Origin: Corticibacter populi | GTDB lineage: Bacteria; Pseudomonadota; Gammaproteobacteria; Burkholderiales; Burkholderiaceae_C | DNA length: 64,000 nt | Direction of reading: 5' to 3' | NCBI RefSeq assembly: GCF_004217315.1 | Contig: NZ_SGWR01000004.1 | Coordinates: 206,718-270,717, forward strand | Shown: piece after piece, positions 23,275-38,283 of the stretch | How positions within the stretch are numbered: the stretch's first letter is position 1 | Layout of the letters: each line of letters starts with the position of its first letter | Notes under the pieces: generated by a model | Told to the model about the DNA's origin: nothing | Database searches by the model: none | What the model saw: the letters and a program-made list of their open reading frames with translations, nothing else | Program-made: the position numbers and the translations under genes

Positions 23275-23320
23275 TCCGTGTGTAGTTGCACCAGCAACTA
23301 GCCATACTGCTTAGCAGACA

Positions 23321-23350
23321 AAGCGCCACCGTCAAGGTGGCGCTTTTTTT
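23321..23350 (+). terminator. Rho-independent terminator of porin gene
   Basis: AAGCGCCACC and GGTGGCGCTT form a 10-bp perfect stem with the loop GTCAA, followed by a run of seven or more T. It begins about 47 bp after the porin stop. Confidence 0.92.
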
Positions 23351-23778
23351 CGTCTGCTGTGTCTGCAGCGGGTCGTCGGCACTGCGCTGCATGCCTATTC
23401 GGCCCGGTCCACACAGAGGCATCCGGGTGATGTTTCACACGACGTCTGGTTCGTGAATCGGCAATGCCGCGGAGTCGACGAGAAAATGTTGCAACACGTG
23501 TCAACCGGTAGCATGGCTCGCGCGTCTTCACAAACGCTCTGGCAACATGTCGGGCATGAAAATCCTTGAGCACCGCATGTAAATCCCTGTTGCGTGGCTA
23601 CCACTGATGCACAATCTGAAACCATCTTCGAAAACGTCAGTCGAACGGAATTGTTTTTTGGCGAATAATCAATCAGGCATCGCGTGAGTGCGTTCAGACA
23701 TTGGATTTGTGCATGACCAAACAGGATTTTCTGGGTGTTGATACCGGCGCATCGGTGACCGGTTGCGGTACGGATGGT
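23351..23778. other. Gap between porin terminator and tolB
   Basis: About 430 bp in which no gene is supported. No remnant of tolQ, tolR or tolA, the usual upstream partners of tolB, was recognised. An AT-rich stretch around 23650-23685 may hold the promoter of the tolB-pal-cpoB operon. In-frame ATG at 23713 could extend tolB into this gap. Confidence 0.5.
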
Positions 23779-25059
23779 ATGGATTGGCGCGCCACGCGTC
23801 GCGGCGCGTTGGGCGCATTGCTGGCTGCAGGTGCGGTGCCCGCGGCCCTGGCGCAGGGTTTGCGGGTGGAGATCTCCGGCTTCGAAGGGCGGCAGTATCC
23901 GATCGCGAACGTGCCGTTCAAGGGCGAGGTGCAGGCGCCGCAGAAGATCTCCGCGATCGTACGGGCTGACTTGGAGCGCAGCGGCGTGTTTCGCGGCGTC
24001 GATGCCAGCGGCGTGGCACTCGATGAGCTGTCCCGTCCGGATCTGGCTGTGTGGCGCCAGCGTGCCGCTGAATGGCTCAATACCGGCAGCATCAACCGCA
24101 CGGCTGATGGCCGCTTCGATGTACGTTTCCGCCTGTGGGATGTGGTGCGTGGCGAAGACCTGGGTGGTCAGAGTTATGTGGTTCCGGCCGCAGACCTGCG
24201 GCTCGCGGCGCACCGCATTGCCGACTTCATTTACGAGAAGGTCACGGGTGAGCCGGGCGTGTTCTCGACTCGTCTGGCCTATGTGACCAAGGGGCAGCGC
24301 TATTCGCTGTGGGTCTCGGATGCCGATGGCGAGAATGCGCAGGCGGCGCTGACCAGCCCCGAACCGATCATTTCCCCCGCCTGGTCGCCCAATGGTGCAC
24401 AGCTCGCCTACGTGTCGTTCGAGTCGCGCAAGCCCGTGGTCTATGTGCACGAGGTGGCGACCGGCCAGCGCCGGCTGGTTGCCAATTTCCGCGGTTCCAA
24501 CAGCGCTCCGACCTGGTCTCCCGATGGGCGCCGCTTGGCGGTGACTCTTACGCGCGATGGCAGTTCACAGCTCTACACCATCGCGGCCACCGGCGGCGAG
24601 CCGGCGCGCATCATGCAAAGTGGTGGCATCGATACCGAGCCTTGTTTCTCGTCTGATGGCCAGTTCATCTACTTCGTCAGTGACCGGGGTGGCTCGCCGC
24701 AGATTTACCGTGTGCCCAGCAGCGGTGGCGGCGCGCAGCGCGTGACTTTCAGTGGCAGCTACAACATCTCGCCGGCACTCAGTCCCGATGGGGCTTACTT
24801 GGCCTATATCTCGCGCACCGGTGGCGGCTACCAGCTGCATCTGATGGACCTGGCTTCCGGCACGGTGACAGCCCTGACGAACACCTCGGCCGACGAAAGC
24901 CCGAGTTTTGCGCCCAACAGCCGGCTGATCCTCTACGCCACCCGCGAAGGCGGCCGCAGTGTGCTGGTGACCACGACGCTCGACGGACGCCACAAGGTCA
25001 AATTGTCCGGCCAGGGCGGAGAGATCCGTGAGCCGGACTGGGGTCCGATCCAGCGCTGA
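23779..25059 (+). CDS. tolB: TolB periplasmic component of Tol-Pal system
   Basis: Periplasmic beta-propeller protein that works with Pal and TolQRA in outer-membrane constriction during division. From the ATG at 23779 it is 426 residues, the normal length, with a signal peptide MDWRATRRGALGALLAAG-- ending AALAQ. A start at 23713 would put 22 residues before the signal and lacks a ribosome site. An N-terminal D1 domain (about 27-160) is followed by WD-like repeats seen as SPAWSPNGAQLAYVSF, APTWSPDGRRLAVTL, EPCFSSDGQFIYFVSD and SPALSPDGAYLAYIS. pal and cpoB follow in order; tolQRA are missing upstream. Confidence 0.93.
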   Translation: MDWRATRRGALGALLAAGAVPAALAQGLRVEISGFEGRQYPIANVPFKGEVQAPQKISAIVRADLERSGVFRGVDASGVALDELSRPDLAVWRQRAAEWLNTGSINRTADGRFDVRFRLWDVVRGEDLGGQSYVVPAADLRLAAHRIADFIYEKVTGEPGVFSTRLAYVTKGQRYSLWVSDADGENAQAALTSPEPIISPAWSPNGAQLAYVSFESRKPVVYVHEVATGQRRLVANFRGSNSAPTWSPDGRRLAVTLTRDGSSQLYTIAATGGEPARIMQSGGIDTEPCFSSDGQFIYFVSDRGGSPQIYRVPSSGGGAQRVTFSGSYNISPALSPDGAYLAYISRTGGGYQLHLMDLASGTVTALTNTSADESPSFAPNSRLILYATREGGRSVLVTTTLDGRHKVKLSGQGGEIREPDWGPIQR

Positions 25060-25140
25060 GCACCCCATGCCGGTGCAGGCGCACATGTCCATTTTTTTGA
25101 GGTTTTCTTTTACGCTAGTTAGCGGTTTGAGGAGTTCGTG

Positions 25141-25674
25141 ATGTTGAAAAAGGCGCTTTCCTATTCCATGCTTGTGACAGCCATCGTGCTGGCAGGCTGT
25201 TCTTCCAAGGTCAAGCTCGACGACCAGGCCAATGCCGGGACGACTGGTACGGCCGCCTATGATCCATCCAGCGGTGCTGGTCAGAGCACGATCTCGGGCA
25301 TTGACCTGACGACGTCGAACATCGAAGGCGAGGGCCCGGCCAACGTCGCCCATACCCTGTACTTCGATTTCGACAGTTACGCCATCAAGCCCGAGTATCA
25401 GGCCACGCTGCAGTCCCATGCGGATTTCCTGCGCGCCAACCGCAGCCGCACGGTGACGCTGGAAGGCCATACCGACGAACGCGGTGGTCGTGAATATAAT
25501 TTGGCACTGGGCCAGAAGCGTGCCGAGGCGGTGCGCCAGGCACTGGACCTGCTGGGTGTGCCGGCCGGCCAGGTCGAGGCCATCAGCTATGGCAAGGAGA
25601 AGCCCAAGGTCCAGGGCTTCAACGAAGATGCCTACGCGCAGAACCGTCGCGTAGAGATCCGCTACAACAACTGA
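25141..25674 (+). CDS. pal: Peptidoglycan-associated lipoprotein
   Basis: Outer-membrane lipoprotein that tethers the membrane to peptidoglycan, 177 residues. The lipobox VLAGC gives lipidated Cys20. The OmpA-like C-terminal domain has the peptidoglycan-binding signature: LYFDFDSYAIKPEYQ, LEGHTDERGGREYNLALGQKRAEAV and QNRRVEIRY. GAGGAG lies before the ATG at 25141; an adjacent GTG at 25138 is an alternative. It is downstream of tolB and one base before cpoB, as in the Tol-Pal operon. Confidence 0.96.
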   Translation: MLKKALSYSMLVTAIVLAGCSSKVKLDDQANAGTTGTAAYDPSSGAGQSTISGIDLTTSNIEGEGPANVAHTLYFDFDSYAIKPEYQATLQSHADFLRANRSRTVTLEGHTDERGGREYNLALGQKRAEAVRQALDLLGVPAGQVEAISYGKEKPKVQGFNEDAYAQNRRVEIRYNN

Positions 25675-25675
25675 T

Positions 25676-26443
25676 ATGACCATGCAACGACCCGCACTGC
25701 CATTCCTCCGTTCTTCCCGCAAGGGTTTGCTGACCGTGGCGGCAAGCGCCAGCCTGCTTCTGCCGGGCGCAGCACACGCCTTGTTCGAGGATGGTGATGC
25801 CAGGCGCGCCATTCTGGAGTTGCGCGGTCGGGTCGATCAGTTGCAGCTCGTGGATCAGAACCATTCCTCCGAAATCCAGCAAATGCGCTCCAGCCTGCTG
25901 GAGCTGCAAAGCCAGATCAGCAGCCTGCGCAGCGAGATCGCCTCGCTGCGCGGTGAGAAGGAAGAACTGACCCGCGAGCTCCAGCAGTTCCGCGATGGGG
26001 TCGATGGCCGCCTCAAGCAGTTCGAGCCAGCACAGGTGCAGGTCGATGGTGCCGAGTTCTCCGCGCAGCCCGCCGAGCAGCAAGCTTATGAGGCTGCGCT
26101 CGATCTGTTGCGCAATGGTGACTACGCCAGATCGCGGGATGCCTTCACCGGGTTCTTGAAAGATTACCCGCAAAGTGGCTATGCGCCATCGGCGCGCTTC
26201 TGGTTGGGCAATTCCTACTACGCCACGCGCCAGTACCAGCAGGCTATCGACACCTTCAATGCCATGCTGCGCCAGGCGCCGCAGCACGAGCGCGCGCCCG
26301 AGGCGGCGCTGTCGATCGCCAATAGCCAGATCGAACTCAAGAACGTGACGGCGGCCAAGCAGACCCTGCAGAATCTGATCAACGTCTATCCGAATTCGGA
26401 TGCGGCAGGCTCAGCCCGTGAGCGGCTGGCGCGCCTGCGCTGA
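25676..26443 (+). CDS. cpoB: CpoB (YbgF) cell division coordinator
   Basis: Periplasmic protein that couples Tol-Pal function with PBP1B peptidoglycan synthesis, 255 residues. A signal peptide ends near PGAAHA. A coiled coil follows (about residues 35-105, heptad-rich with SLLELQSQISSLRSEIASLRG). The C-terminal TPR repeats (about 130-255) include AYEAALDLLRNGDYARSRDAF and ARFWLGNSYYATRQYQQAIDTF. The ATG begins one base after the pal stop, indicating co-transcription. A terminator follows. Confidence 0.94.
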   Translation: MTMQRPALPFLRSSRKGLLTVAASASLLLPGAAHALFEDGDARRAILELRGRVDQLQLVDQNHSSEIQQMRSSLLELQSQISSLRSEIASLRGEKEELTRELQQFRDGVDGRLKQFEPAQVQVDGAEFSAQPAEQQAYEAALDLLRNGDYARSRDAFTGFLKDYPQSGYAPSARFWLGNSYYATRQYQQAIDTFNAMLRQAPQHERAPEAALSIANSQIELKNVTAAKQTLQNLINVYPNSDAAGSARERLARLR

Positions 26444-26471
26444 TGATTAATCGGAACTGAGCCAGAGCCAG

Positions 26472-26519
26472 AACCAGCGGCCATCGCCACGTGCGAATGG
26501 CCGTTGGTTTTTCTTTTTG
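26472..26519 (+). terminator. Terminator after tolB-pal-cpoB
   Basis: Stem arms ACCAGCGGCCAT and ATGGCCGTTGGT (one mismatch) enclose about 12 nt and are followed by a T-rich tract TTTTTCTTTTT. It lies about 30 bp after the cpoB stop. Confidence 0.85.
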
Positions 26520-26566
26520 TCCATCCTCTGACGCGTTTGCAGCAACAGCCCGATTGAAGCAACCCC

Positions 26567-27349
26567 ATGCCATCCAACGAAACCCATGCCCAACGCCGTT
26601 TTGGCGGCATGCAGCGCCTTTATGGCGTCGAAGGAGCAGCTCGCATTGCGCAGGCTCGCGTCGCCGTGGTGGGCATTGGCGGTGTTGGATCCTGGGTGGC
26701 CGAGGCATTGGCGCGCAGTGGCATTGGCGCGTTGACGCTGGTCGATCTGGACAATGTGGCCGAGTCGAACATCAACCGTCAGATCCATGCCCATACCGAG
26801 AGCATCGGCATGCCCAAGGTGCTGGCCATGCAGCAGCGCATTGCTCTGATCCATCCCGGTTGCGAGGTTCAGGGCATAGAGGATTTTGTCGAGGAAGACA
26901 ATGTGCAGCACTTGCTGGGCGGCGATGGGATTGATGCGGTTGTTGATGCCTGCGACCAAGTACGCGCCAAGGCCGCCATTGCTAGCGCCATGGTGGCGCT
27001 GAAGCGACCCTTCATCACCGTGGGCGCGGCAGGCGGCCGCACCCACGCCGAGCAGGTGGAGGTACAGGACCTCGGCCTGCTCTCCCATGACCCTTTGCTG
27101 GCGCAACTGCGCTACCGCCTGCGCCGCTACCATGGCTTTCCAAGCCAGGGCGCACGCATGCATGTGCCCTGCGTCTTTAGCAGGGAGGCCGTGCGCCAGG
27201 CCGATGCCAGTTGCGCCGCCACCCAGCAGGAGGGCAGCCTGAACTGCGCGGGCTACGGCTCATCGGTGGCCGTGACCGCCACCTTTGGCATGGTTGCCGC
27301 CGGCTGGATTCTGAATCGCTTGGCACTGGCGCCAGAGCCGCGCCGATAA
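26567..27349 (+). CDS. tcdA: tRNA threonylcarbamoyladenosine dehydratase
   Basis: E1-like (ThiF/MoeB fold) cytoplasmic enzyme that uses ATP to cyclise t6A to ct6A at position 37 of ANN-decoding tRNAs. The protein is 260 residues. The nucleotide-binding motif VGIGGVGSWVAEALARSG and the LVDLDNVAESNINRQ stretch are intact. A cysteine-bearing loop VPCVFSREAV and the C-terminal LNCAGYGSSVAVTATFGMVAA match TcdA/CsdL. It stands between the cpoB terminator and tRNA-Lys; lysine tRNA is one of the t6A-modified tRNAs, though the linkage may be chance. Confidence 0.93.
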   Translation: MPSNETHAQRRFGGMQRLYGVEGAARIAQARVAVVGIGGVGSWVAEALARSGIGALTLVDLDNVAESNINRQIHAHTESIGMPKVLAMQQRIALIHPGCEVQGIEDFVEEDNVQHLLGGDGIDAVVDACDQVRAKAAIASAMVALKRPFITVGAAGGRTHAEQVEVQDLGLLSHDPLLAQLRYRLRRYHGFPSQGARMHVPCVFSREAVRQADASCAATQQEGSLNCAGYGSSVAVTATFGMVAAGWILNRLALAPEPRR

Positions 27350-27354
27350 GCTGC

Positions 27355-27360
27355 TATAAT
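27355..27360 (+). promoter_or_regulatory. -10 box of tRNA-Lys gene
   Basis: A perfect TATAAT lies 43 bp before the mature 5' end of tRNA-Lys, followed by GCGCGGC, a G+C-rich discriminator typical of stable-RNA promoters. No good -35 hexamer is present at 16-18 bp; TTGGCA at 27320 is too far. Confidence 0.6.
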
Positions 27361-27403
27361 GCGCGGCTTCACGCAATTCTGATCATTGAGTTGCGGCAGC
27401 GTC

Positions 27404-27479
27404 GGGTCTTTAGCTCAGCTGGTAGAGCAGCGGACTTTTAATCCGTTGGTCGCGGGTTCGAATCCCGCAGGACCCACCA
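27404..27479 (+). tRNA. tRNA-Lys (TTT anticodon)
   Basis: A full cloverleaf can be drawn. Acceptor stem GGGTCTT pairs with AGGACCC (one G-T pair), the D arm contains AGCTCAGCTGGTAGAGC, and the anticodon arm CGGAC-TTTTAAT-CCG has anticodon TTT. The T arm is CGGGTTCGAATCCCG and CCA is encoded. It marks the left edge of a lower-G+C region with transposase remnants, and tRNA genes are common island insertion sites. Confidence 0.97.
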
Positions 27480-27497
27480 AAGAACAGTAGTAAAATC

Positions 27498-27532
27498 AAA
27501 CACTTGACGTGAAAGCGTTGAGTGTTTTTTTG
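27498..27532 (+). terminator. Terminator after tRNA-Lys
   Basis: AACACT...ACG and CGT...AGTGTT form an interrupted stem around the loop TGAAAG and are followed by seven T. It lies about 20 bp after the CCA end. Confidence 0.75.
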
Positions 27533-27719
27533 CGACCCGCTCCATGTAGCCGCTGTGTAGCCGACGGAAAGCAGAATCTCCACGAAACCTGTATCCCAAG
27601 AGCAAGGTTGCGCGGTAACGGTTTCTCTATACAGCAGGACCCAGCCAGCGCTCACCTGCCGGGATTTCATGCGGTGGGTTGCCGCACGCAGCGTTCGGCA
27701 TCATCTATCGCCATCGATG

Positions 27720-27910
27720 CAGGCGGTGCGCTGCAGAGCGCCTGCATCGAGCGCTTCATCAGCAAGCTTCGACAGGAGTGTTTGGACGGACAATCGTTCG
27801 AAACATTGGTACAGACACATCAGGAGATCGCCCAAAGGCAGCACGATTTCAACGATGTGCGTCCCCACAGTTCACTGTGGCACACCCCGCGCGCGAGCTT
27901 CGCCTCCTGA
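27720..27910 (+). pseudogene. IS3-family transposase remnant (C-terminal end)
   Basis: The last 60 or so codons of an IS3-type integrase-fold transposase. It reads ACIERFISKLRQECLDGQ and ends HDFNDVRPHSSLWHTP, equivalent to ESFNGRLRQECL and DYNESRPHSALGWATP in the element at 36.3 kb. The rest of the catalytic core (the two upstream Asp residues) is missing and the frame upstream does not continue the homology. It lies 240 bp from tRNA-Lys at the edge of the putative island. The remaining 27533-27719 and 27911-28006 hold nothing recognisable except a 10-nt copy of the tRNA 3' end at 27634. Confidence 0.8.
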
Positions 27911-28006
27911 CATCGCCTGCGCTGGTGATGTCAGAAGGTCTAGAAAACCTTGGGTTCGCTATCTCACCACTGGTATGGTTGAAGCCGTCAAGTCAAAAGA
28001 TCCTGC

Positions 28007-28693
28007 TCAAAACCCCGGACGATTCACAATGCTGCGCCGCTTCTCGAGGTGGCCGAGAAAAATCACCAGCGGCCACAACAGCGTCAAATAGATCGCTGCA
28101 GCCAACACGATGGGCGTGGGGTTGTAGAGCATCGACTGTGCGGTACGCGCCGCATAGAGCATGTCTGGGACCGAGACAACGCTCGCGAGCGTGGTGAGCT
28201 TGACGACCTCGATCATGTTGCTCACCAGATCGGGGAACACGTTGCGCAAGGCCTGAGGAATTTCCACCCAGATCAGGCTCTGCAGGCGGCTCATCCCTGT
28301 GGATCGGGCTGCTTCCCGCTGACCGGGCGCAACGCTCTCGAGACCGGCGCGAAAAATCTCACCGAAGTAACTCGAGTTGTTGAGCATGAAGCCGACGGCA
28401 ACGCAGCCAAGCGGCGACAGCTCAACGCCCAGGTAAGGCAGGCCGGTGTAGAGAAAGATCAACAGCACCAGCGGCGGGAATGCCCGGAAAAAATCGATGT
28501 AAACCACCAGCACACCGCGTACCAAGCGACTTTTGGAGACGAAGCCGGCCACAGCAAGCAGCAAGCCACTTGCCAGGCCAAGTGGAATCACCCACAGTGA
28601 CAGCGCCAGCGTGGTCCACAGGCCGTTGATGACATACGGCGTAACTTCTTTAAGCACGTCGATGTTGAAGAACGTTTGAATGATGTTGTTCAT
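28007..28693 (-). CDS. Polar amino-acid ABC transporter permease (second)
   Basis: Inner-membrane permease of the HisM/GlnP family, 228 residues with about five hydrophobic segments. The N-terminal YVINGLWTTLALSLWVIPLGL and the EAA loop (AGLESVAPGQREAARSTGMS, then PQALRNVFPDLVSNMIEVVK) are typical. It is the last gene of an eight-gene operon and lies 18 bp after its partner permease. Together they would form the membrane channel for the amino acid or related compound bound by the product at 30.2 kb. Confidence 0.92.
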   Translation of the reverse strand: MNNIIQTFFNIDVLKEVTPYVINGLWTTLALSLWVIPLGLASGLLLAVAGFVSKSRLVRGVLVVYIDFFRAFPPLVLLIFLYTGLPYLGVELSPLGCVAVGFMLNNSSYFGEIFRAGLESVAPGQREAARSTGMSRLQSLIWVEIPQALRNVFPDLVSNMIEVVKLTTLASVVSVPDMLYAARTAQSMLYNPTPIVLAAAIYLTLLWPLVIFLGHLEKRRSIVNRPGF

Positions 28694-28711
28694 GGTGCCC
28701 GTTCTTCAGCT

Positions 28712-29392
28712 TCAGTGCATACCTGCGCCATGGCGGCGTTCGATGTATCGGCCCGCGATTACCACGGGAAGAAAAATCATGAGATAACCGAGGGCTCCCA
28801 GCATCAGCGGTGTTGGGTTGCCGGCGAAGCTCGTGGCGGAGGTCGCTTCGTTCAGAATCTCATTCAGGGCTGCCACCGAACCGTAGGCTGTGCCCTTGGT
28901 GATGGCGATCACACGATTGGTCAGCGGAGCAACCATCAGGCGGCAGGCCTGAGGCAATGTGACGTAAAGCATCGTCTGCGTGTGTGACAGGCCTGTCGAG
29001 CGCGCCGCTTCTTGAATGCCAGGAGGCTGCGCCTGGATGCCAGCCCAGTAGACTTCCTCCGAGAACGCTGCCAGCACCAGAGTCAAGGCCAGCCAGGTTG
29101 CCACGAACGCACTCATCGAGATGCCAACAAACGGCATCGCATAGTAGAAAAGAATGATCAATACCAAGGGCGGTAGCGCCCGCAGAATGTCTACCGACAT
29201 TCTGATCGCCAGGCGCAATGTGCGCGAGGGAAAGGTCCGCAGATAAGCCAGCAGCAGACCCAGAGCAAGCCCGGCAACGACGATGGCCGCCCCTAGCTCA
29301 ATGGTGACCATGGCGCCGCGCAGGATTTGCGGCAGATACTGGCGCGCAACGTCCGCGTTGAAGAATGTGAAAACGAGTTGATCAAGTTGCAT
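28712..29392 (-). CDS. Polar amino-acid ABC transporter permease (first)
   Basis: Inner-membrane permease of the HisM/GlnP family, 226 residues from the ATG at 29392; a longer in-frame extension reads back through the ATPase gene and is rejected. Hydrophobic helices and the family loop are clear (EEVYWAGIQAQPPGIQEAARSTGLS, then PQACRLMVAPLTNRVIAITK). It lies 19 bp after the ATPase gene and 18 bp before the second permease in the same operon. Confidence 0.92.
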   Translation of the reverse strand: MQLDQLVFTFFNADVARQYLPQILRGAMVTIELGAAIVVAGLALGLLLAYLRTFPSRTLRLAIRMSVDILRALPPLVLIILFYYAMPFVGISMSAFVATWLALTLVLAAFSEEVYWAGIQAQPPGIQEAARSTGLSHTQTMLYVTLPQACRLMVAPLTNRVIAITKGTAYGSVAALNEILNEATSATSFAGNPTPLMLGALGYLMIFLPVVIAGRYIERRHGAGMH

Positions 29393-29411
29393 GAGCAGGC
29401 CTCGCCGGGGT

Positions 29412-30170
29412 TTAGATACGGCGTTCGCCGATGCCCCCGACAAACGCCGCTGTGCGCGCTTGTGCCGGACTGCCAAAAACCTGGTCTGGATGGCCTTGCT
29501 CGACGATGACGCCATCTTCCATGAACACCACATGGTCAGAGGCCGCCTTCGCAAAGCCCATCTCATGCGTCACGACCACCATCGTCATCCCATCGTTGCG
29601 CAGCTCTCGCATGACTTCCAACACGCCCCCCACCATCTCCGGATCTAGCGCACTGGTCGGTTCATCAAAAAGTACCAAGGCCGGTCGCATCGCTATGGAG
29701 CGCGCGATGCCCACGCGCTGCTGCTGCCCGCCCGAGAGCTGCGCGGGGCGCGCATCGGCCTTGTGCTCCATCCCGACTTTTCTAAGCGCATCGATGGCGA
29801 CTTTTTCGGCTTGGGCGCGCGGCATCTTCTTCACCTTGGTGAGCGCAAGGGCAACGTTACTCAGCACCGTCAAGTGTGGATAAAGGTTGAATGCTTGGAA
29901 CACCATGCCCACCCGCTCACGCAGTTTGTTGAGATTCGAGCGTGGGTCATAGATGTCCTTGCCCTCAACAAGAACCTGACCGCTGCTCGCATTCTCCATG
30001 CGATTGCAGCAGCGCAGCAGCGTGCTCTTGCCGGAGCCGGAAGGACCGATGATGGACACCAGCTGGCCGGCTCGCACGTCCATGTCAATCCCTTTCAGAA
30101 CGACATTAGACCCATAGTGCTTGAAGAGCTGGCGCACTTGCAGCAGCGAAGAAGAGGAAGTTGCGGACAT
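29412..30170 (-). CDS. Polar amino-acid ABC transporter ATPase (GlnQ-like)
   Basis: Cytoplasmic ATPase of a polar amino-acid importer, 252 residues, usual for GlnQ/HisP. Walker A is GPSGSGKST, the Q loop is [19 protein letters not shown], the signature is [15 protein letters not shown] and Walker B is [14 protein letters not shown]. The switch histidine lies in [10 protein letters not shown]. It sits between the binding protein (38 bp upstream) and the two permeases in the putative hydantoin/D-amino-acid operon. Confidence 0.94.
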
Positions 30171-30208
30171 CGGTTCGGGCAGTGAATATCTGGGGCTACA
30201 GGGCGCGA

Positions 30209-31048
30209 TTAGTTGCAGTTCAGCTCGACGGGCGTTGCGTCATAGCCGTTGAGGCCTTCGACGCCATGGCCAGGCGGGGAGACCATGGTGGCGGAGTTGG
30301 GCAAAGGCTCGGAGTTAAACCATTTGGTGTAGAGCGCAGCCAGGGAACCATCTTTCTTCATGCACTTGAGCACCATGCTGACTTGGTCGCGACCGGCCTT
30401 ATCGTCCAGGCGAAAAGGAATCGACCAGACCGAGCCTGTTTCAATGACAGCGGTCGATTTGATCGAGCCGTTGCTCTTGATCGCCCAGGCCGATGGCGTC
30501 AGCCCTGCCAGGTTGCCGTCAGCGCGTCCGGAGATCACAGCCTGTACGGCATCCGCATTGGTGCCATACACGGCAATTTCGTAGCCATACTGCTCTTGGT
30601 GGGCACGCGCCCACTCTTCCGGGCCGGAGCCCTTGTTGACTGCCAGCGTCTTGCCTCTGAAGTCTTCGAGAGAGTTCAGATCGTTCCGACTCTTCTTCAC
30701 CACAATGGTGAAATTGTTGTTCATGTAGCCTTCGGTCAGAAGGACGGTCTTGGCGCGCTCGGCAGAAACTGTTGTTGGCGCCATCAGAAAATCGAACTTG
30801 CCTGCATTCAGCGCAGGAATCAGGGCGGAGTACTGTGCACCTTCAATCTCCAGGGGACGGCCGAGGCGTCTGGCGATTTCCTCGCCGAGCTCGACGTTAA
30901 AGCCCTGGTAACCACCACTGAGCTTGGGAAACGCATGCGGAGGGAAGTTCGGATCAATGCCGGTGCGCAGTGGCGTTTGGGCCATTGCGCTACCAATCAG
31001 GCAAGCCAGTGTGATAGGTGCAACAAAGAATCGAGTCAGGCGAGACAT
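30209..31048 (-). CDS. Amino-acid ABC transporter substrate-binding protein
   Basis: Periplasmic binding protein of family 3 (SBP_bac_3), 279 residues, with a signal peptide ending IGSAMAQ. The family N-terminus [20 protein letters not shown] is followed by [15 protein letters not shown] and later [11 protein letters not shown]. The family usually binds polar amino acids or opines. Co-transcription with hydantoinase genes suggests a ligand such as a D-amino acid, N-carbamoyl amino acid or hydantoin; that is inference. It is the fifth gene of the operon, 12 bp after the racemase. Confidence 0.92.
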
Positions 31049-31060
31049 GGGCTAGTTCCT

Positions 31061-31828
31061 CTAAGCTAGGGTTAAGGGTCTGGGAGGGGGAGAGATGGGC
31101 GCTTCTGCACGCAGATCAGGCCGGAAAACCGCCAGCACGCGTCGCGCAAGTGCGTCGACAGAGTCGGTAATCACCACGTCAAAGGCATCACGGCACGTGT
31201 TCGGCAGCGCGAGTGGCAGCTCGGTACAAGCCAGCACCACGGCACGCGCGTGTTGTTCTGCCAGCGACGCGACAGCACGAGATGCCGGTGCCAATGCCTC
31301 GTTGGTGCGGCTTGCTTTGACCAGCTCGATCGCGCTCACACAGTCTTCAAAAGACTGGCTCTGTGGCACCAGAACGTCATAGCCGCGCGCTTTGAGGGCC
31401 GGCTGATAAAGATCCAGCGCCAAAGTTGCCGGAGTGGCAAGTAGGCCAATGGGGCCATCAACGACTCCTTGACTCGCCAAGTCATCAAGCACCGCATCGA
31501 CGATATGCAGAATCGGTACATGGCTGTTGGCGGCCAGCTGCGGGTACCACAGATGCGCGGTGTTGCACGGAATTGCGATGCAATCGGCCCCTGCATCGAC
31601 CAGTAACGCGATCCCTTGCATCATGTCCGGCAAAGGGCTTTTGCCGCCGTGCAGCATGGCGGCGGTGCGATCCGGAATTCTCGGATCACTGCGCAGCAGC
31701 ACAGAAATGTGCTCCTGATCACAACCAGCTGGCGTCATTTCGATCAGCCGTTTGAGAAAGTGCGCGCCAGCCAACGGGCCCATACCTCCTAGTACGCCCA
31801 GACATTGGGGTGCTTGGGCACCGTTCAT
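31061..31828 (-). CDS. Aspartate/glutamate racemase family protein
   Basis: Cofactor-independent two-cysteine racemase, 255 residues. The N-terminus LGVLGGMGPLAGAHFLKRL is typical of the RacD/YgeA group. Both catalytic cysteines are present in AIPCNTAHLW and VLACTELPLAL. It would interconvert L- and D-forms of an amino acid, which fits processing of the D-amino acid produced by the carbamoylase encoded upstream. Its start overlaps the preceding racemase stop as ATGA. The exact substrate cannot be told from sequence. Confidence 0.88.
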   Translation of the reverse strand: MNGAQAPQCLGVLGGMGPLAGAHFLKRLIEMTPAGCDQEHISVLLRSDPRIPDRTAAMLHGGKSPLPDMMQGIALLVDAGADCIAIPCNTAHLWYPQLAANSHVPILHIVDAVLDDLASQGVVDGPIGLLATPATLALDLYQPALKARGYDVLVPQSQSFEDCVSAIELVKASRTNEALAPASRAVASLAEQHARAVVLACTELPLALPNTCRDAFDVVITDSVDALARRVLAVFRPDLRAEAPISPPPRPLTLA

Positions 31829-32499
31829 GGCTTGGCCTTCCCATTCACGGCATCAATGGCAGCAACAATGGCTGCCGCGCAAGGATCAATCACCGGGACA
31901 TCAAGCGCCGACTCAAGCTGCCCGCGCAATGCGGACATGCCGGCGCAGCCAAGCAATATGGCATCAGCATGCAGCTTGTCGCGCAGTGTCCTGCCGGCAG
32001 CAAGCATGCGCTCGAAGGCCTGTACGTGATCACCGGATGCGGCTACCGAAATATTCAGTGCACGTTCACCCACTACGCGGTGTCCGATGCCTATGCGCTC
32101 CCAGTACGCAAGATGGCGTGGAATCGCAGCATCTGCGACAGCCACCACCCCAACACGCTCTCCCGCCTGCAGGGCGCAGCGCATGCCTGCCTCCCCCATG
32201 CCGATGACGGGGATTGCACACTGGCTGCGGACCGCCTCCAAGCCAGGATCGCTGAAACAGGCGATGACCGCAGCGTCGTACGCACCCAAAAAGTTGCCGA
32301 CAACGCGCGCGCCCACGCGATGCCTTGCGTCTTCAAAATCGGCTTGTGTCACGATCCCCTCGGGTCCATCGCTGCAAGTAACACCGACTATTTCAGCCAT
32401 GCGCTCGGGCATGGCGCAACGCATTGCATGCACCACCGACTGCGTGACGCTCTCGCTGCTGTTTGGGTTGAGCGCCAGGATGCGCGGCACCACATTCAT
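31825..32499 (-). CDS. Hydantoin racemase-like protein (Asp/Glu/hydantoin racemase)
   Basis: Two-cysteine racemase of the hydantoin/allantoin racemase group, 224 residues from the ATG at 32499. The N-terminus PRILALNPNSSESVT is characteristic. The cysteines are in AAVIACFSDPGLEA and ILLGCAGMSAL, matching the Cys76/Cys181 pair of HyuE-type enzymes. It would racemise 5-substituted hydantoins so that both isomers can enter the hydantoinase. It overlaps its neighbours on both sides by four bases. A role as maleate isomerase or allantoin racemase is less likely given the operon. Confidence 0.85.
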   Translation of the reverse strand: MNVVPRILALNPNSSESVTQSVVHAMRCAMPERMAEIVGVTCSDGPEGIVTQADFEDARHRVGARVVGNFLGAYDAAVIACFSDPGLEAVRSQCAIPVIGMGEAGMRCALQAGERVGVVAVADAAIPRHLAYWERIGIGHRVVGERALNISVAASGDHVQAFERMLAAGRTLRDKLHADAILLGCAGMSALRGQLESALDVPVIDPCAAAIVAAIDAVNGKAKP

Positions 32500-33983
32500 T
32501 GCGGACCTCTCACTTCCAGCAGCGCCTTGAGTACTGATCCACGCACATGCGTAGCCGCCGTATTTGCTGCGGATGCGTTTGGCAACTCCGGTTTGCTGCG
32601 CCGCAGAAACTGCCCGGTGCCGCGCTCGACCAGCAATTGCCCATCCTGAACGACTACCCGGCCCCGGTTGATGACCGTGGTCGGCCAGCCCTGCATCGTT
32701 CGCCCTTCGTAGGGCGTATAGCCAGTGTTGTCGTGCAGCATGCTGGCCTTGATCGTGGTGCGGCGTTCTGGATCCCAAATGGCGATGTCGGCATCGGCGC
32801 CTGCCACCAGTTCACCCTTGCGGCCAGACAGGCCATATAACGCGGCGTGGTTGCCTGCCGTCAATGCGACGAATTGATGGATATCCATGCGTCCCGTCAT
32901 CACGCCTTCGCTGAACAGCAATGGCATGCGCAATTCGATGCCTGGAACACCGTTTGCCATCTCTTTGAAGGTGGTGGCATCGCCGTTGGGAAGCTTGCCT
33001 GAAGCGTCGAAGCGGTAGGGGGCGTGGTCGGAGGAATACGTCGCCAGCGTTCCATCGAGCAAGCCGCGCCAGACTTCCTGCTGCGACGCGGCGTCGCGTG
33101 CGGGTGGCGAGCAGCAGAACATGGCGCCCTCCAACCCGGGACGATCCATATCCTTGGCGTCAAGGAACAGGTACTGTGGGCAGCTTTCGGCAAGAACCCG
33201 GGCTCCCAGGCGCTGCGCGCCGCGCAGCAACTGCACCGTCTCGGCTCCGGCAACATGCACGATCATCACCGGTACGTCCAGCAAGCGAGACATCGCGATA
33301 GCGCGATTGGTGGCTTCGCTTTCCGCGATTGGGTCATGCGCCACACCATGGAACTTGGGCGCTGTGTGCCCCTGCTCCAGCAGGCGTTGCGTGATCCAGC
33401 GGATCATGTCGTGATTCTCCGCGTGCAGCATCACCAGAGCTTGCTCGTGCCGCGCCAGTGCCAGAATATCCAGCAGCTGGTAGTCGTCAAGGCGCATCTT
33501 CTCGTAAGTCATATAGACTTTGAGCGAGGTAATGCCATCACGGATGGCCTGCGGCAAATCGGTCTGCATGGTCTCCTCATCTGGATTTGCCACGATGAGA
33601 TGAAAGCCATAGTCGATCACCGCTTTTTCGGCTGCCCGCGCGTGGTAGTCAGCCAGAACTTCCGGGATGCTTGCATTGCGATGTTGCGCCGCGAACGGAA
33701 TGATCGTGGTCGTACCACCAAACGCCGCAGAAACGGTTGCGCTGTAAAAGTCGTCCGCGCACATCATGCCCATCCCGGAGCGCTGCTCGACGTGACAGTG
33801 GCTATCAATGCCGCCTGGCAGTACCCAATGCCCGTTTGCGTCGATTTCGCGTTTTCCTGCGCCAAGCTGAGGTGCAATGCGCGCTATGCGCCCGTCGCAT
33901 ACGCCAACGTCACTCATCTCCACGCGGCCTTGTGTCACGACGCGGCCGCCGCGTATGACCAGATCATATTGGGGGACGTTCAT
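32496..33983 (-). CDS. D-hydantoinase / dihydropyrimidinase
   Basis: Metal-dependent cyclic amidohydrolase that opens 5-substituted hydantoins or dihydropyrimidines to N-carbamoyl amino acids, 495 residues. Binuclear metal ligands are visible: His-x-His in GGIDSHCHVEQ and a carboxylated lysine in ITSLKVYMTYEKM. The later His residues lie in VMLHAENHDM and VMIVHVAGAE, and the Asp in YSSDHAPYRF. Length and motifs fit the D-hydantoinase subfamily. The gene overlaps the carbamoylase upstream and the hydantoin racemase downstream by four bases each. Pyrimidine catabolism alone is less likely, because the neighbour is a D-carbamoylase and not a beta-ureidopropionase. Confidence 0.93.
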   Translation of the reverse strand: MNVPQYDLVIRGGRVVTQGRVEMSDVGVCDGRIARIAPQLGAGKREIDANGHWVLPGGIDSHCHVEQRSGMGMMCADDFYSATVSAAFGGTTTIIPFAAQHRNASIPEVLADYHARAAEKAVIDYGFHLIVANPDEETMQTDLPQAIRDGITSLKVYMTYEKMRLDDYQLLDILALARHEQALVMLHAENHDMIRWITQRLLEQGHTAPKFHGVAHDPIAESEATNRAIAMSRLLDVPVMIVHVAGAETVQLLRGAQRLGARVLAESCPQYLFLDAKDMDRPGLEGAMFCCSPPARDAASQQEVWRGLLDGTLATYSSDHAPYRFDASGKLPNGDATTFKEMANGVPGIELRMPLLFSEGVMTGRMDIHQFVALTAGNHAALYGLSGRKGELVAGADADIAIWDPERRTTIKASMLHDNTGYTPYEGRTMQGWPTTVINRGRVVVQDGQLLVERGTGQFLRRSKPELPNASAANTAATHVRGSVLKALLEVRGPQ

Positions 33984-34927
33984 TTGACCGGTGCTCCAGC
34001 GCCGGTGCGCTCCGTGATCAGCTTGTAATGCTCCGGCCGGCGATGCTTGGCGAAATTGAACACATGTTCACGGAACATCTCACCCAGCGACAGGTCCACG
34101 TTGGCGGTAATTACTTCATCTTCTTCCGATACCGCGCGTGCCACGATCTCGCCTGTAGGAGCGACGATCACCGAACTGCCGATCATGTGATGACCGTCCT
34201 CACTGCCACACTTGGCTGCCGCAGCCACCCAGAGACCGTTTTGATAGGCGTTGGCTTGCAGAGAAATCAAATGCGTGGTCGTGCGAAGATGCACCGGCTC
34301 ATTCCAGTGGATGTTCAAGGACGGAGTGTTGTAGCCCAGCACCACCACCTCAGCGCTTTGCAGTGCCATGACGCGGTAAGTCTCTGGCCAGCGACGGTCA
34401 TTGCACAGGCACATTCCCATGCGCACTTCGGTGTCTCCTAGCGGCACGTTATGCACCCTGAAACCCAAATCACCTACTTCAAAGTACTTCTTCTCCAAAT
34501 GCTGAAATGGTGCCTCGGGCTTATGGTCAGAGTGACCTGGCAAATGGATCTTGCGGTACTTGCCAGCGATGCTGCCATCAGGCCGCACGATCACTGCGGA
34601 GTTGTAGGGCGTGCCTTCTGGCGTGAGCTCGGCATAGCCAAGATAGAACCCCACACCCAAATCGCGCGCGGTATCAAAAAGTGGACTGGTCTCCGTACTG
34701 GGCAGCGTTTGCTCAAAAAAGCGCGCCTGTGCTTCTGCATCTCCCATCCAGTAACGCGGAAAAAATGTTGTCAACGCCAGCTCCGGGAAAACGACAAACT
34801 GCGCGCCCCGATTTTTTCCCTCCTTCAGCATTTCCACCAAACGAGCCACCACCGACGCTCGGGAGTCATCCAGATTTACTGCGCCCATCTGAGCCACAGC
34901 CATCACGAAGCTACGCTTTCCAGTCAT
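33980..34927 (-). CDS. N-carbamoyl-D-amino-acid amidohydrolase
   Basis: Nitrilase-superfamily enzyme that hydrolyses N-carbamoyl-D-amino acids to D-amino acid, CO2 and NH3; 315 residues from the ATG at 34927. The catalytic triad is Glu49 (VVFPELALTTFFPR), Lys126 (GKYRKIHLPGH) and Cys175 (CNDRRWPE). These segments are nearly identical to Agrobacterium D-carbamoylase, as are FQHLEKKYFEVGDLGF and HVFNFAKHRRPEHYKLI. It is the first gene of the eight-gene operon and overlaps the hydantoinase. A TTG 18 bp further up would add six residues. Confidence 0.93.
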   Translation of the reverse strand: MTGKRSFVMAVAQMGAVNLDDSRASVVARLVEMLKEGKNRGAQFVVFPELALTTFFPRYWMGDAEAQARFFEQTLPSTETSPLFDTARDLGVGFYLGYAELTPEGTPYNSAVIVRPDGSIAGKYRKIHLPGHSDHKPEAPFQHLEKKYFEVGDLGFRVHNVPLGDTEVRMGMCLCNDRRWPETYRVMALQSAEVVVLGYNTPSLNIHWNEPVHLRTTTHLISLQANAYQNGLWVAAAAKCGSEDGHHMIGSSVIVAPTGEIVARAVSEEDEVITANVDLSLGEMFREHVFNFAKHRRPEHYKLITERTGAGAPVK

Positions 34928-35256
34928 CTCATGTTTCCATATCAATTAGGGGTGCAGGAATGATTGCGCAACAGGACAGAAAAATCGATAACGCTTTTAT
35001 TCCCAGCTATTGCCGTTTTGTTAACACCTGCAGTGGATGCACTGAATCCGAACATTTTTCGCACCAAACAAGGGCATTTATGGTCTCCATGCACGTCAGA
35101 TGGCACCGAAGTTGTGCTCAGTCAAGGATGGGATATCTCCATGGCCGGACTATGCGAAGCATCGCCCGCGAATCTAAGAGCCTGTTCAAAGGCGTGGATG
35201 TCGGAGACACTCTTGCCTTGCCACCGTTATGCGCGAGTTGGAGTTAGAGTCACTGC
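34928..35256. promoter_or_regulatory. Divergent promoter region, hydantoin operon and LysR gene
   Basis: 329 bp between the first operon gene and the divergent LysR regulator, AT-rich near the operon side (34975-35040). LysR regulators usually bind such shared regions at T-N11-A sites, but no single convincing one was picked out. At 35175-35192 the sequence TAAGAGCCTGTTCAAAGG matches the end of the interspersed repeats seen elsewhere in the window. A small open frame across this gap looks spurious. Confidence 0.5.
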
Positions 35257-36189
35257 ATGAAGTTGAGACATCTGGAAGTGTTCTGGGCGGTCATGTCAAC
35301 CGGCTCGGTCAGTGACGCCGCTCGGCTGCTGCACGTCTCTGTGCCGGCAGTGAGTCGGGTACTCGGCCATCTGGAAGTGCAGCTTGGGTTTCCCCTGTTT
35401 GATCGAATCAAGGGGCGTCTTTATCCGACCGAGGAATCAAAGCGACTTTTCAAGTCGGTCGATGACATCTACGGGCGTATACGTGATATCGACCGGCTCG
35501 CGCAAGACCTTTTGCAACGTCGTAAAGGCCTGCTCAGCATTGTTGCAAGCAATAGCATTGGCCATGAGCTAGTGCCTATCGCACTGGCAAAGCTGCGCTT
35601 GAGGTTTCCCGATTTGCACGTGCGCTTCGTACTGCTAGGGCACGAAGCGCTGCGCGACTGCATACTTGAAGGCCACGCCGATCTTGGCATATCGACGCTG
35701 CCGATGGAACACCCTCAACTCACGACGCGCCTGATAGCACGCAGTGAGTTGATGTGCATCTGTCCTTGGAGTCATCCCCTCGCGCAAGCCAGCGCCGTTA
35801 GTGCGCAGGAGCTGGCGCAGCACCTCAACATTGGTTACGTACCGAAAACACCAATGGCCCAACGCCTGGCCTCTTTTTTCGATCAGCATGGATCTGCGTT
35901 GCAGACCACCATTGAAGTCGGGACCCCCCATAGCGCCTGCGCATTGGTACAAGCCGGCGCAGGCGTAGCATTGGTAGAGCAATTCTCCCTGCAAAGCTGG
36001 CCAAGAGCTGCATTCAGGGTAATCCCTCTTGAGGGGGCAACGCCAATTCTCGCCGACTTGATTTATCTTCGCGGCGCACCGCTAAGTCGTCCCGCTGACG
36101 TGTTTGTGGAATATCTGACGGAGGTACTGGATATACGCGCCCTGATCCCCAATGCACCCAAACTTTCCATGCAGATGCTCTTGGATTGA
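35257..36189 (+). CDS. LysR-family transcription regulator
   Basis: DNA-binding regulator of 310 residues. The winged helix is at the N-terminus (LRHLEVFWAVMSTGSVSDAARLLHVSVPAVSRVLGHLE, about residues 3-40). The substrate-binding domain follows from about residue 90 (LLSIVASNSIGHELVPIAL). It is transcribed divergently from the hydantoin operon with a shared gap of 329 bp, so it is the likely local activator responding to a pathway intermediate. Its G+C content is lower than that of the flanking core genes, like the rest of the island. Confidence 0.92.
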   Translation: MKLRHLEVFWAVMSTGSVSDAARLLHVSVPAVSRVLGHLEVQLGFPLFDRIKGRLYPTEESKRLFKSVDDIYGRIRDIDRLAQDLLQRRKGLLSIVASNSIGHELVPIALAKLRLRFPDLHVRFVLLGHEALRDCILEGHADLGISTLPMEHPQLTTRLIARSELMCICPWSHPLAQASAVSAQELAQHLNIGYVPKTPMAQRLASFFDQHGSALQTTIEVGTPHSACALVQAGAGVALVEQFSLQSWPRAAFRVIPLEGATPILADLIYLRGAPLSRPADVFVEYLTEVLDIRALIPNAPKLSMQMLLD

Positions 36190-36308
36190 CTGAGTTGCGG
36201 GCCAAATCGTGCCATCAATCTTAACGACAAATATTTCTTAGCTCTGCGCCGCCTTATCTGACAGCCGACTATATACCTCGCTACCCAGCTATTGACCCTG
36301 TACCCGAC

Positions 36309-36896
36309 TCAGCACCGCCCTGAAGCAGAAACTTCTGGCTCCTCTGATATCGCCGTTGCTGTCTGCATGCAGCAACGGCGGGCGAATTCGGCAGGTGTCG
36401 CCCACCCCAGCGCAGAGTGGGGGCGACTCTCGTTGTAGTCCCTGCGCCAAACCCCGATCTTGGCCTGCGCGTCGGCCAATGACAAGAACCAATGTGCATT
36501 CAGGCACTCCTGGCGCAACCGGCCATTGAAGCTCTCCACAGCCGCGTTGTCGGTCGGCCTGCCCGGTCGGCTGAAGTCGAGCTCCACACCACGCTCATAG
36601 GCCCATCTGTCCATCGCCTTGGAGATGAATTCGCTGCCGTTGTCGGTCCTGATCGTAGCCGGCAGGCCGCGCTGCGCAGTGATGCGATTGAGCGTGCGCA
36701 CAACGTCTTCTCCCTTGAGGCTCTGCCCGACATCAATGGCCAGGCACTCGCGCGTGTACAGCTCAACAACCGTCAACATGCGCAGCTTGCGCCCGTCGAA
36801 CAGCGCGTCGGCCACGAAATCCATGCTCCAGATCTCGTTGCATCCGAAACGCTGTATCAATTCGGGCACCACCGCCCGGCGCGGCGAAGGCCTCAA
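36309..36896 (-). pseudogene. IS3-family transposase OrfB, N-terminus missing
   Basis: Integrase-fold transposase fragment of 195 residues in which the catalytic residues are kept: the first Asp in IWSMDFVADALFDG, the second in IRTDNGSEFISKAM and the Glu in ESFNGRLRQECL. The N-terminal HTH_21 segment (about 80 residues before RFGCNEIWSMDF) that intact OrfB proteins carry is absent. The remaining frame begins directly after the OrfA region. Frameshifted OrfAB production is therefore unlikely to yield an active transposase. Confidence 0.85.
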
Positions 36897-37158
36897 AGCT
36901 TTTTTCGACCATCGCCTGCAGCATCGTCTTGTCCAGGCTCAGGTTGGCCACGATCTGCTTGAGCTTGCGCTTCTCTTCTTCGAACTGGCCCAGCCGACGC
37001 AGCTCCGATGGTCCAACGCCTGCGTACTTCTTGTGCCACACATAGAAGGTTGCATCGCTGATGCCCATCTTGCGGCACACCTGCTCGACGCTGATGCCCA
37101 GTTCCGCCTGCTTGGGCGCAAAGGCCATCTGATCCTCAGTGAACATGTTCTTCCTCAT
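36763..37158 (-). pseudogene. IS3-family OrfA with replaced C-terminus
   Basis: HTH_8-type transposase subunit. The first 90 or so residues are normal (EQVCRKMGISDATFYVWHKKYAG, then SELRRLGQFEEEKRKLKQIVANLSLDKTMLQ). After KSFEAF the sequence leaves the family and reads out of frame through the OrfB coding region. This is the junction of the internal deletion. The out-of-frame overlap with OrfB extends about 130 bp. Confidence 0.8.
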
Positions 37159-37244
37159 GACATGCTCCTGGCCCGATCCGGGCCTTCAATCATGCCGGTC
37201 GTTCTGTTACCGAACGCTTCGAAATCATGGGACAGGGTCAACTC

Positions 37245-37820
37245 TCACACACTGTGAATAAAGCGGACCACCCGCTTGAGCATGTCGAAATCCAGATCTT
37301 CTTCGAGTTTGGGATTGCGCAGTGCCCTGACCGACAGGCCTGCAAGCAGTGCTGCCACGATTTCGAGGCGCGAGCGGGTCTCGCGGCTGTCATCTCCGAC
37401 AAGTTCTTGGAGCGCCGTGTGGAATTCGGCATCGTTGCGATGCACCACTGCGGCGATGGCGGGGTTGCGCGCCGCTTCGGCCAGGATTTCAATGGTTAGC
37501 GAAGCGCGCTTGAGATCTTTGTGGATGGAGACGGCGTGGCTGAGTTGGTCGATGAACAAGTCCATGACATCTTGCCCAGGGTTGGCCGCGGCAGCGCTTT
37601 GCAGCACGCTGATCTCGCTGCGGTCGCGCTCGACGATCGCGGCGACGATGTCTTCCTTGCTTTTGAAGTAGTGGTAGATGTGGCCCGAGCTCATCTCTGC
37701 CGCTTCGGAGATTCTGGCCATGCTGCTGCGATGAAATCCCCTGACGCGAAAACACTCCGCGGCAGCATCGAGGATTTGCGCCTTGCGCTTACGGGCAATT
37801 TCCGATTCTTCTTTGTTCAT
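37245..37820 (-). CDS. TetR-family regulator, divergent from RND pump
   Basis: One-component repressor of 191 residues. An N-terminal TetR helix-turn-helix is at about residues 12-58 (ILDAAAECFRVRGFHRSSMARISEAAEMSSGHIYHYFKSKEDI). The C-terminal ligand domain is slightly short and ends only three bases from the IS3-type element, so the tail may have been trimmed. It is divergent from the RND efflux operon 463 bp away and is a candidate local regulator of it. The second TetR gene at 44.2 kb is the other candidate. Confidence 0.87.
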   Translation of the reverse strand: MNKEESEIARKRKAQILDAAAECFRVRGFHRSSMARISEAAEMSSGHIYHYFKSKEDIVAAIVERDRSEISVLQSAAAANPGQDVMDLFIDQLSHAVSIHKDLKRASLTIEILAEAARNPAIAAVVHRNDAEFHTALQELVGDDSRETRSRLEIVAALLAGLSVRALRNPKLEEDLDFDMLKRVVRFIHSV

Positions 37821-38283
37821 GGGTGTAGATCCTGAGGGCCTGCTGCGGAGTGCGCCTGCCGACCGCGTTTGCCGCGTACCAAAGTCTTGTCTTAGGTATG
37901 GGTTGCGTGGACCGGACCGAACAGCCGGGCTTGCGGGGCAGAACCCAAAACTTTACCTGACTGCCCTACCCGCGTGACGCACTCAGACAATGTGTCGTGT
38001 GGCCGACACAGGCGGCAGCGGGGAATCATACTCAAGGATATCCCTCGACGGAGATTGGTTAGTCGCGCGGCTTTTCCTGCGGCGGCGCAAGGCAACGGAC
38101 TCGTCATTGAGTTGGGTCGGTCAATCAACCTATATAATCTCGCGTGGCTTGCTCAAGCTTCGCAAGCTTCTTGCTTGGAAATAGTTTGGTCAACCAACAA
38201 CTCTAAGTCTGGCCAATGGGTGGCAAGACCCTCGCAACGATTGCGCCGGTAACCGCGCAACCCGAAAGATCAAGGAATTTCCC
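37821..38283. promoter_or_regulatory. Regulatory gap between TetR gene and RND operon
   Basis: 463 bp without a supportable gene. A TATAAT at 38133-38138 has TTGGGT (38112) or TTGAGT (38108) as possible -35 boxes, both with imperfect spacing. Downstream of it lie AAGCTT-CGC-AAGCTT (38155-38169 region) and an inverted repeat TTGGT-CA-ACCAA at 38186-38197, a possible TetR operator. GGTCAATCAACC at 38119-38130 is a partial second copy. The left half (37821-38080) shows nothing clear. Confidence 0.5.

Follow-up and report, generated by a model that had tools for sequence, protein, structure and literature searches.

Here, we examined an eight-gene operon in a 64,000-nucleotide stretch of the Corticibacter populi genome (contig NZ_SGWR01000004.1; hereafter, the window), in which enzymes of hydantoin hydrolysis are joined to two racemases and to an ATP-binding cassette (ABC) importer of the polar amino-acid type. 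Our analysis makes it probable that this operon imports an N-blocked amino acid, namely a hydantoin or an N-carbamoyl derivative that probably bears an acidic side chain, and converts it to the L-amino acid. It constitutes a variant of known hydantoin (hyu) clusters that recurs in other genomes, and the points that appear to be new are the pocket of its importer, a linked clade of racemases, and a narrowed substrate class. One paper terms the natural function of hydantoinases still unclear (PMC3546935); as an importer with an altered pocket accompanies the enzymes in a recurring operon, ligand screening can directly test what this hydantoinase subfamily acts on in nature. For amino-acid biocatalysis, the operon would further offer an importer, a hydantoinase, a carbamoylase, and two racemases that are matched to one another.

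The eight colinear genes lie on the minus strand (positions 28007-34927), each with a reading frame open from its ATG to a stop codon, and are transcribed in the order D-carbamoylase, hydantoinase, racemase 1, racemase 2, binding protein, ATPase, permease, and permease. The four-base overlaps that an initial annotation of the window had reported among the first four genes proved exact at all three junctions, while racemase 2 and the binding protein gene are separated by 12 bases and the later junctions by 38, 19, and 18 bases. The reading frames, families, and order described in that annotation were confirmed, and Pfam, NCBIfam, and solved structures agree in the family assignments, with matches far beyond chance. 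The scans likewise bore out its complete polar amino-acid ABC transporter with a divergent LysR-type regulator, since every part was matched by Pfam or NCBIfam, the importer consisting of an SBP_bac_3 binding protein, two HEQRo-type permeases, and an ATPase. No operator for the regulator was found in the 329-base divergent region.

The binding pocket of the importer bears on the identity of the transported ligand. In the amino-acid-binding proteins of this family, an arginine holds the carboxylate of the ligand and an aspartate its ammonium (Arg77 and Asp161 in the lysine-binding protein). For a sensor built on the lysine-binding protein, one report gives a rise of the dissociation constant for lysine from 97 to 2000 µM upon the D161I substitution and a value of 306 µM for R77L (PMC4917951). 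Alignment revealed that the window's binding protein keeps the carboxylate arginine (R98) and carries Gly182 in place of the ammonium-site aspartate. Among 34 aligned binding proteins linked to a hydantoinase or carbamoylase, the arginine was present in all 34, and the aspartate site held glycine in 32, serine in one, and a gap in one; the 35 control binding proteins retained the arginine in 33 cases and displayed 30 Asp, three Gly, one Ser, and one Thr at the second site. The ammonium-site aspartate was therefore found in none of the 33 linked proteins with a residue there, versus 30 of the 35 controls. These controls were collected by searching the own genome and its relatives for members of the family; they include near-copies from sister genomes and are mostly best-scoring matches, so that they lean toward canonical members. 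The binding proteins of the second carbamoylase locus (L070 and L071), both devoid of the aspartate, had been removed from the linked set before this count. As for the three glycine-bearing controls, one (L196), chosen blind to its context, belongs, as its surroundings revealed, to a cluster of hydantoinase, carbamoylase, and ABC genes (L212), another (L164) is the L070 protein, which the own genome encodes at its second carbamoylase locus, and the third (L165) adjoins GntR and acyl-CoA dehydrogenase genes. The loss of the aspartate is thus real, but in the linked proteins it belongs to a single clade of the tree, which also holds a few unlinked carriers. An AlphaFold2 model of the binding protein (mean pLDDT 86.7) retrieved mostly amino-acid-binding proteins among its best 50 Foldseek matches, with the opine-binding SocA (glucopine, deoxyfructosyl-glutamine) at ranks 4, 6, 10, and 13; this likeness to a binder of N-substituted amino acids is, at 25% identity, only a hint.

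The genes further recur together in other genomes. A second genome of the genus, referred to here as the sister genome (L061), carries the same operon in the same order, with proteins 86-98% identical, and all eight genes occur in other orders in Paenalcaligenes suwonensis (L088) and, together with the LysR gene, on a plasmid of Variovorax paradoxus VAI-C (CP063167.1); the search for the eight-gene order that the initial annotation had proposed thus found conservation of order in the sister genome and of gene content beyond it. We scanned named genomes with a carbamoylase alignment and scored the best 80 of at least 588 confirmed relatives, a sample that leans to close kin, by tblastn of nine window proteins. 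A hydantoinase was present in 46 of these 80 loci, the binding protein in 26, and both in 25; the seven genes other than racemase 2 occurred together in 19, racemase 2 in five, and all eight genes in one (that of Paenalcaligenes), tallies that are lower bounds since some loci stop at contig ends. Across 399 genomes of the family, the carbamoylase was detected in 24 (E ≤ 1e-60) and the binding protein in nine (E ≤ 1e-45), and in all nine a hydantoinase lies within about 2.5 kb of the latter. Three of 10 genomes of the genus have the binding protein, one at 40% identity only, and among 20 plasmid records that carry it, seven were examined and four contain a hydantoinase (L214, L215, L219, and L223). 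The earlier expectation that hyu clusters usually carry permeases of other types did not survive this comparison, in which 25 of the 46 hydantoinase-bearing loci among the best 80 have this binding protein; the importer type is not unusual for this branch of clusters. Searches of titles and opening lines of abstracts, with subscription journals outside the coverage, returned no description of this gene set, nor of such an operon under acidic hydantoins and N-carbamoyl-D-acids.

Racemase 2 displayed a narrower distribution. It was found in four of the five loci of the window's importer subclade (support 100/100; window, sister genome, Variovorax, and Paenalcaligenes) and in none of 39 other loci. 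Seven racemases within 4 kb of a D-carbamoylase form one clade (support 100/98), outside which fall two more distant cluster racemases from Paraburkholderia (L098) and Sulfitobacter (L216). Racemases of this type may have become partners of hydantoin enzymes on more than one occasion: the racemase tree needs two changes, although its well-supported branches force one only. No carbamoylase or hydantoinase match was present in the short flanks of 28 control racemase loci. As a separate observation, seven of these loci (L035, L041, L044, L045, L051, L056, and L060) have a gene weakly similar (25-28%) to the binding protein in their short flanks, and the own genome encodes a second homologue, 41% identical to racemase 2, at C2:853868-854560. 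The proposal that the second racemase and a dedicated ABC system complete the pathway thus stands insofar as the genes recur as one module, to which the importer and the second racemase look tied by pocket, co-occurrence, and racemase clade.

The catalytic residues of the enzymes are in keeping with these family assignments. In the carbamoylase, E49, K126, and C175, which we take to be the Glu-Lys-Cys catalytic triad of the family, are invariant in all 14 aligned sequences, as are N176, R178, and R179, with the expected carboxylate Arg thus present. In a docking study of a D-carbamoylase, Arg176 and Asn173 are named as residues that contact the substrate (PMC11503299); going by the Cys-Asn-Asp-Arg-Arg motif common to both enzymes, rather than by alignment, these correspond to R179 and N176 here. 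The HxH, Lys, His, His, and Asp motifs of the hydantoinase, presumably its metal-site and catalytic residues, align with those of solved D-hydantoinases. Relative to each of the four solved D-hydantoinases aligned, its third gate loop lacks one residue, and we accordingly dropped a description of the change as Phe159 to Arg; among 54 rows, 48 carry Lys or Arg in this loop, and a distant paralogue in L120 is one of the others. According to one report, Phe159 in this loop influences the side chains accepted by known D-hydantoinases (PMC7175128). In racemase 1, Cys81 and Cys185, the presumed catalytic pair, are invariant in all nine aligned sequences, and none of the curated hydantoin-racemase models of NCBIfam matched. 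An identity as arylmalonate decarboxylase or maleate isomerase was considered for this protein, which scored weakly against the NCBIfam decarboxylase model (25 bits, cut-off 225) and narrowly over the cut-off of Pfam Amdase (27.3 versus 25.9), and was dropped because both cysteines are present and the best solved relatives of the profile are hydantoin and allantoin racemases. Racemase 2 retains two cysteines in all seven rows, along with the counterparts of Arg48 and Lys164 of aspartate racemase, residues assigned a role in that enzyme. Pfam and NCBIfam revealed no known sulfonate-cleaving enzyme among the nine proteins scanned. The own genome returned no match to an ATP-dependent Hydantoinase_A-type enzyme (PF01968).

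The initial annotation had left the substrate open, and our data point, short of proof, to an N-blocked substrate whose side chain is probably acidic. What we observed are the genes and their order, the catalytic residues, their conservation, the change in the pocket, and the tie of racemase 2 to the importer subclade; from these we infer all reactions, the ligand with its acidic side chain, and the control by LysR. In the proposed route, the ABC importer would take up a hydantoin or N-carbamoyl amino acid, that is, a ligand with a carboxylate and no free alpha-ammonium. In the cytoplasm, the hydantoinase would open the D-hydantoin and racemase 1 would convert the other hydantoin enantiomer; the D-carbamoylase would, with release of ammonia and CO2, yield the D-amino acid, which racemase 2 would turn into the L-amino acid for growth, with the LysR-type protein as the putative regulator of the operon. 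The side chain is probably acidic and may be Asp-, Glu-, or cysteate-like, as in hydantoin-5-acetate or hydantoin-5-propionate, the latter being a reported metabolite and one natural candidate. Four hints, none of them proof, point in this direction: racemase 2 scores over the cut-offs of both the CuyB and asp_race models and keeps the Arg48 and Lys164 positions; a basic residue sits in the shortened gate loop of the hydantoinase; on a Sulfitobacter dubius plasmid (L216, with transposase genes nearby), the neighbour of the carbamoylase, the hydantoinase, and both racemase homologues is not the ABC importer but a TRAP transporter with a C4-dicarboxylate annotation; and the Corticimicrobacter cluster has an asparaginase gene about 2.3 kb away. 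Tentatively, and with less than even confidence, we would go further and propose a dedicated class of ABC importers for N-carbamoyl amino acids or hydantoins with acidic side chains which, with a specialised clade of D-acidic-amino-acid racemases, would complete a natural route by which an acidic hydantoin from the environment becomes L-aspartate, L-glutamate, or L-cysteate. Such a route, if true, would give the hydantoinases of this subfamily a physiological role.

Several observations weigh against this reading of an acidic, N-blocked substrate. The absence of the aspartate from 33 of 33 linked proteins may reflect one event, since these belong to a single clade, and would also suit D-amino acids or plain carboxylates as ligands. 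In the 12.8 kb shown for each of three plasmid clade mates of the binding protein, no hydantoinase was found; these derive from Variovorax sp. RA8 (tricarballylate genes; Asn at the ammonium site, with an Asp directly after it), Paracoccus aminophilus (coenzyme A (CoA)-linked genes; Ala), and Agrobacterium (an amidase; Asn). Because these three unlinked clade mates also lack the aspartate, members of the clade may carry carboxylates without an amino group, which fits a pocket that needs no ammonium and leaves room for rival ligands. Four clusters carry the hydantoinase and the importer without a D-carbamoylase in the stretch examined, and the basic gate-loop residue occurs both with and without racemase 2. 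Corticimicrobacter, the fifth member of the importer subclade, has no racemase 2 in the sequence seen, and the association of racemase 2 with the subclade (Fisher test, 3.7e-5) takes the 44 loci as independent of descent, with two of the four positives being near-copies (window and sister genome) and some loci stopping at contig ends.

In light of these points, we considered three rival explanations. The importer might carry a free D- or L-amino acid, with hydantoins entering otherwise and the genes sharing regulation rather than a substrate. Its membership in the polar amino-acid family is consistent with this, as is the finding that such racemases can adjoin SBP_bac_3 proteins (seven of the 28 control loci), which would be expected for D-amino-acid use, and the ammonium of a D-amino acid sits elsewhere and might not need the lost aspartate. 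However, the ammonium-site aspartate is gone, and the binding protein gene keeps company with a hydantoinase in nine of nine family genomes and four of the seven plasmid records examined, which leads us to regard a free amino acid as an unlikely cargo. Alternatively, the substrates might be cyclic imides or other ring amides, degraded to plain carboxylates by the hydantoinase as an imidase and the carbamoylase as a half-amidase; we consider this distinctly improbable, as the carbamoylase retains the residues of true D-carbamoylases and two racemase-type enzymes would be left without an obvious use, even though clade mates of the binding protein adjoin tricarballylate and CoA-linked acid genes and several hydantoinase clusters contain SDR, DapA-type, and flavin adenine dinucleotide (FAD) oxidase genes.

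A role in the reductive degradation of uracil or thymine, with the hydantoinase as an ordinary dihydropyrimidinase, appears very improbable. The name of the NCBIfam subfamily is indeed that of a dihydropyrimidinase, and the D-hydantoinase of Geobacillus stearothermophilus has been argued to be its dihydropyrimidinase (PMC7175128). However, a search confined to the nine scanned proteins yielded neither a dihydropyrimidine dehydrogenase nor a beta-ureidopropionase, the nitrilase-fold protein is closer to D-carbamoylase (E 5e-100) than to an entry named beta-ureidopropionase (9e-28), and dihydrouracil needs no racemases. Uptake and conversion of an N-blocked, probably acidic amino acid remains our preferred reading.

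Comparison with known systems places the operon close to the hyu clusters, with which it shares the D-hydantoinase, D-carbamoylase, and hydantoin racemase families, and to which it adds a CuyB-type amino-acid racemase and an ABC importer of the polar amino-acid type; the well-known hydantoin permease Mhp1/HyuP belongs to a different family. One study terms a D-carbamoylase gene ahead of the D-hydantoinase gene, an arrangement shared by the window's operon, unusual and describes in Aminobacter a dihydropyrimidinase gene followed by ABC transporter genes (PMC3546935). The importer shares its fold and subunits with the GlnHPQ and HisJ/LAO types, but its binding protein is without their ammonium-binding aspartate, and racemase 2 exceeds the cut-offs of CuyB and aspartate racemase models but lies in a D-carbamoylase operon and in a clade of its own. 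Comparable chemistry on an acidic hydantoin is found in ErtD and ErtE, which in the ergothioneine route convert hydantoin-5-propionate to L-glutamate; the ErtD models scored 227 and 188, under their cut-offs of 650 and 600, and the carbamoylase here is of the D-specific type. The coordinates of all features are collected in the table.

Table. Genes and regulatory region of the hydantoinase-importer operon, in window positions
Feature	Position	Strand	Supporting match
D-carbamoylase (N-carbamoyl-D-amino-acid hydrolase, CN_hydrolase)	33980-34927	-	PF00795 164 bits; PDB 1fo6 D-carbamoylase E 5e-100
D-hydantoinase/dihydropyrimidinase family, PRK13404 subfamily, basic residue in gate loop 3	32496-33983	-	NCBIfam PRK13404 746 bits (cut-off 647), D-hydantoinase 521 bits (393); PDB 4kqn E 5e-111
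Racemase 1, hydantoin-racemase-type Asp_Glu_race protein	31825-32499	-	PF01177 166 bits; best solved relatives hydantoin/allantoin racemases
Racemase 2, amino-acid racemase, CuyB/aspartate-racemase type	31061-31828	-	NCBIfam CuyB cysteate racemase 242 bits (cut-off 190), asp_race 130 (93)
ABC substrate-binding protein (SBP_bac_3), Gly182 at ammonium-binding Asp site, Arg98 kept	30209-31048	-	PF00497 103 bits
ABC transporter ATPase	29412-30170	-	PF00005 128 bits; GlnQ-type 290 bits, under cut-off 379
ABC permease 1	28712-29392	-	PF00528 67 bits; HEQRo_perm_3TM 69 bits (cut-off 42)
ABC permease 2	28007-28693	-	PF00528 76 bits; HEQRo_perm_3TM 79 bits (cut-off 42)
Divergent promoter region, 329 bases	34928-35256	.	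Alignable with sister genome, best on operon side
LysR-type regulator, divergent	35257-36189	+	PF00126 and PF03466 over cut-off; 96% identical in sister genome

The surroundings of the operon were also inspected. Its G+C content is 58.3%, versus 64.7% for the window, and several kb at 22000-38000 outside the operon likewise have 58-61%. The operon is flanked by a transposase remnant (27509-27910) and transposase pieces (36309-37158), and in both genomes about 500 bases separate its end from the 3' end of a tRNA-Lys gene (27404-27479 in the window, 17609-17684 in L061), which is a different one in each (TTT in the window, CTT in the sister genome); beyond the operon and the tRNA, no similarity between the two was found in the compared stretches. 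An integrative island at tRNA-Lys was considered and dropped, as no second copy of the last 20 bases of the tRNA (at most two mismatches) occurred in the window or in two sister stretches; no PF00589 integrase was found in the window. Among the closest relatives found, carbamoylases about 80% identical come from two genomes for which the 19-20 kb examined contained no hydantoinase. Racemase 1 reaches at most 52% identity outside the genus, and on the Variovorax plasmid, where the ABC genes come first, the importer proteins are 77-80%, the carbamoylase 77%, the hydantoinase 74%, the racemases 52% and 58%, and LysR 51% identical. Because the closest relatives differ gene by gene, these comparisons suggest that the operon is a mosaic moving between genomes.

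Related loci displayed further gene combinations. In one genome (G022, L180), the hydantoinase gene is followed by that of an amidase-signature protein and the same type of ABC importer, with no D-carbamoylase match in 20 kb, and the hydantoinase-ABC clusters L178, L091, L100, and L215 differ in which they contain of three further enzymes, namely a DapA-type aldolase, an SDR, and a GlcD-type FAD oxidase; this suggests another substrate for these clusters. Finally, the second carbamoylase locus (L070 8785-18094; own genome C1, about 1193785-1203094) combines a second D-carbamoylase with an amidase of the hydantoinase/carbamoylase family (TIGR01879, 400 bits against a cut-off of 204) and a diaminopropionate ammonia-lyase (518 bits against 276). 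It also encodes a DAO-type oxidase and an ABC importer, and looks like a locus for the breakdown of a ureido derivative of 2,3-diaminopropionate.

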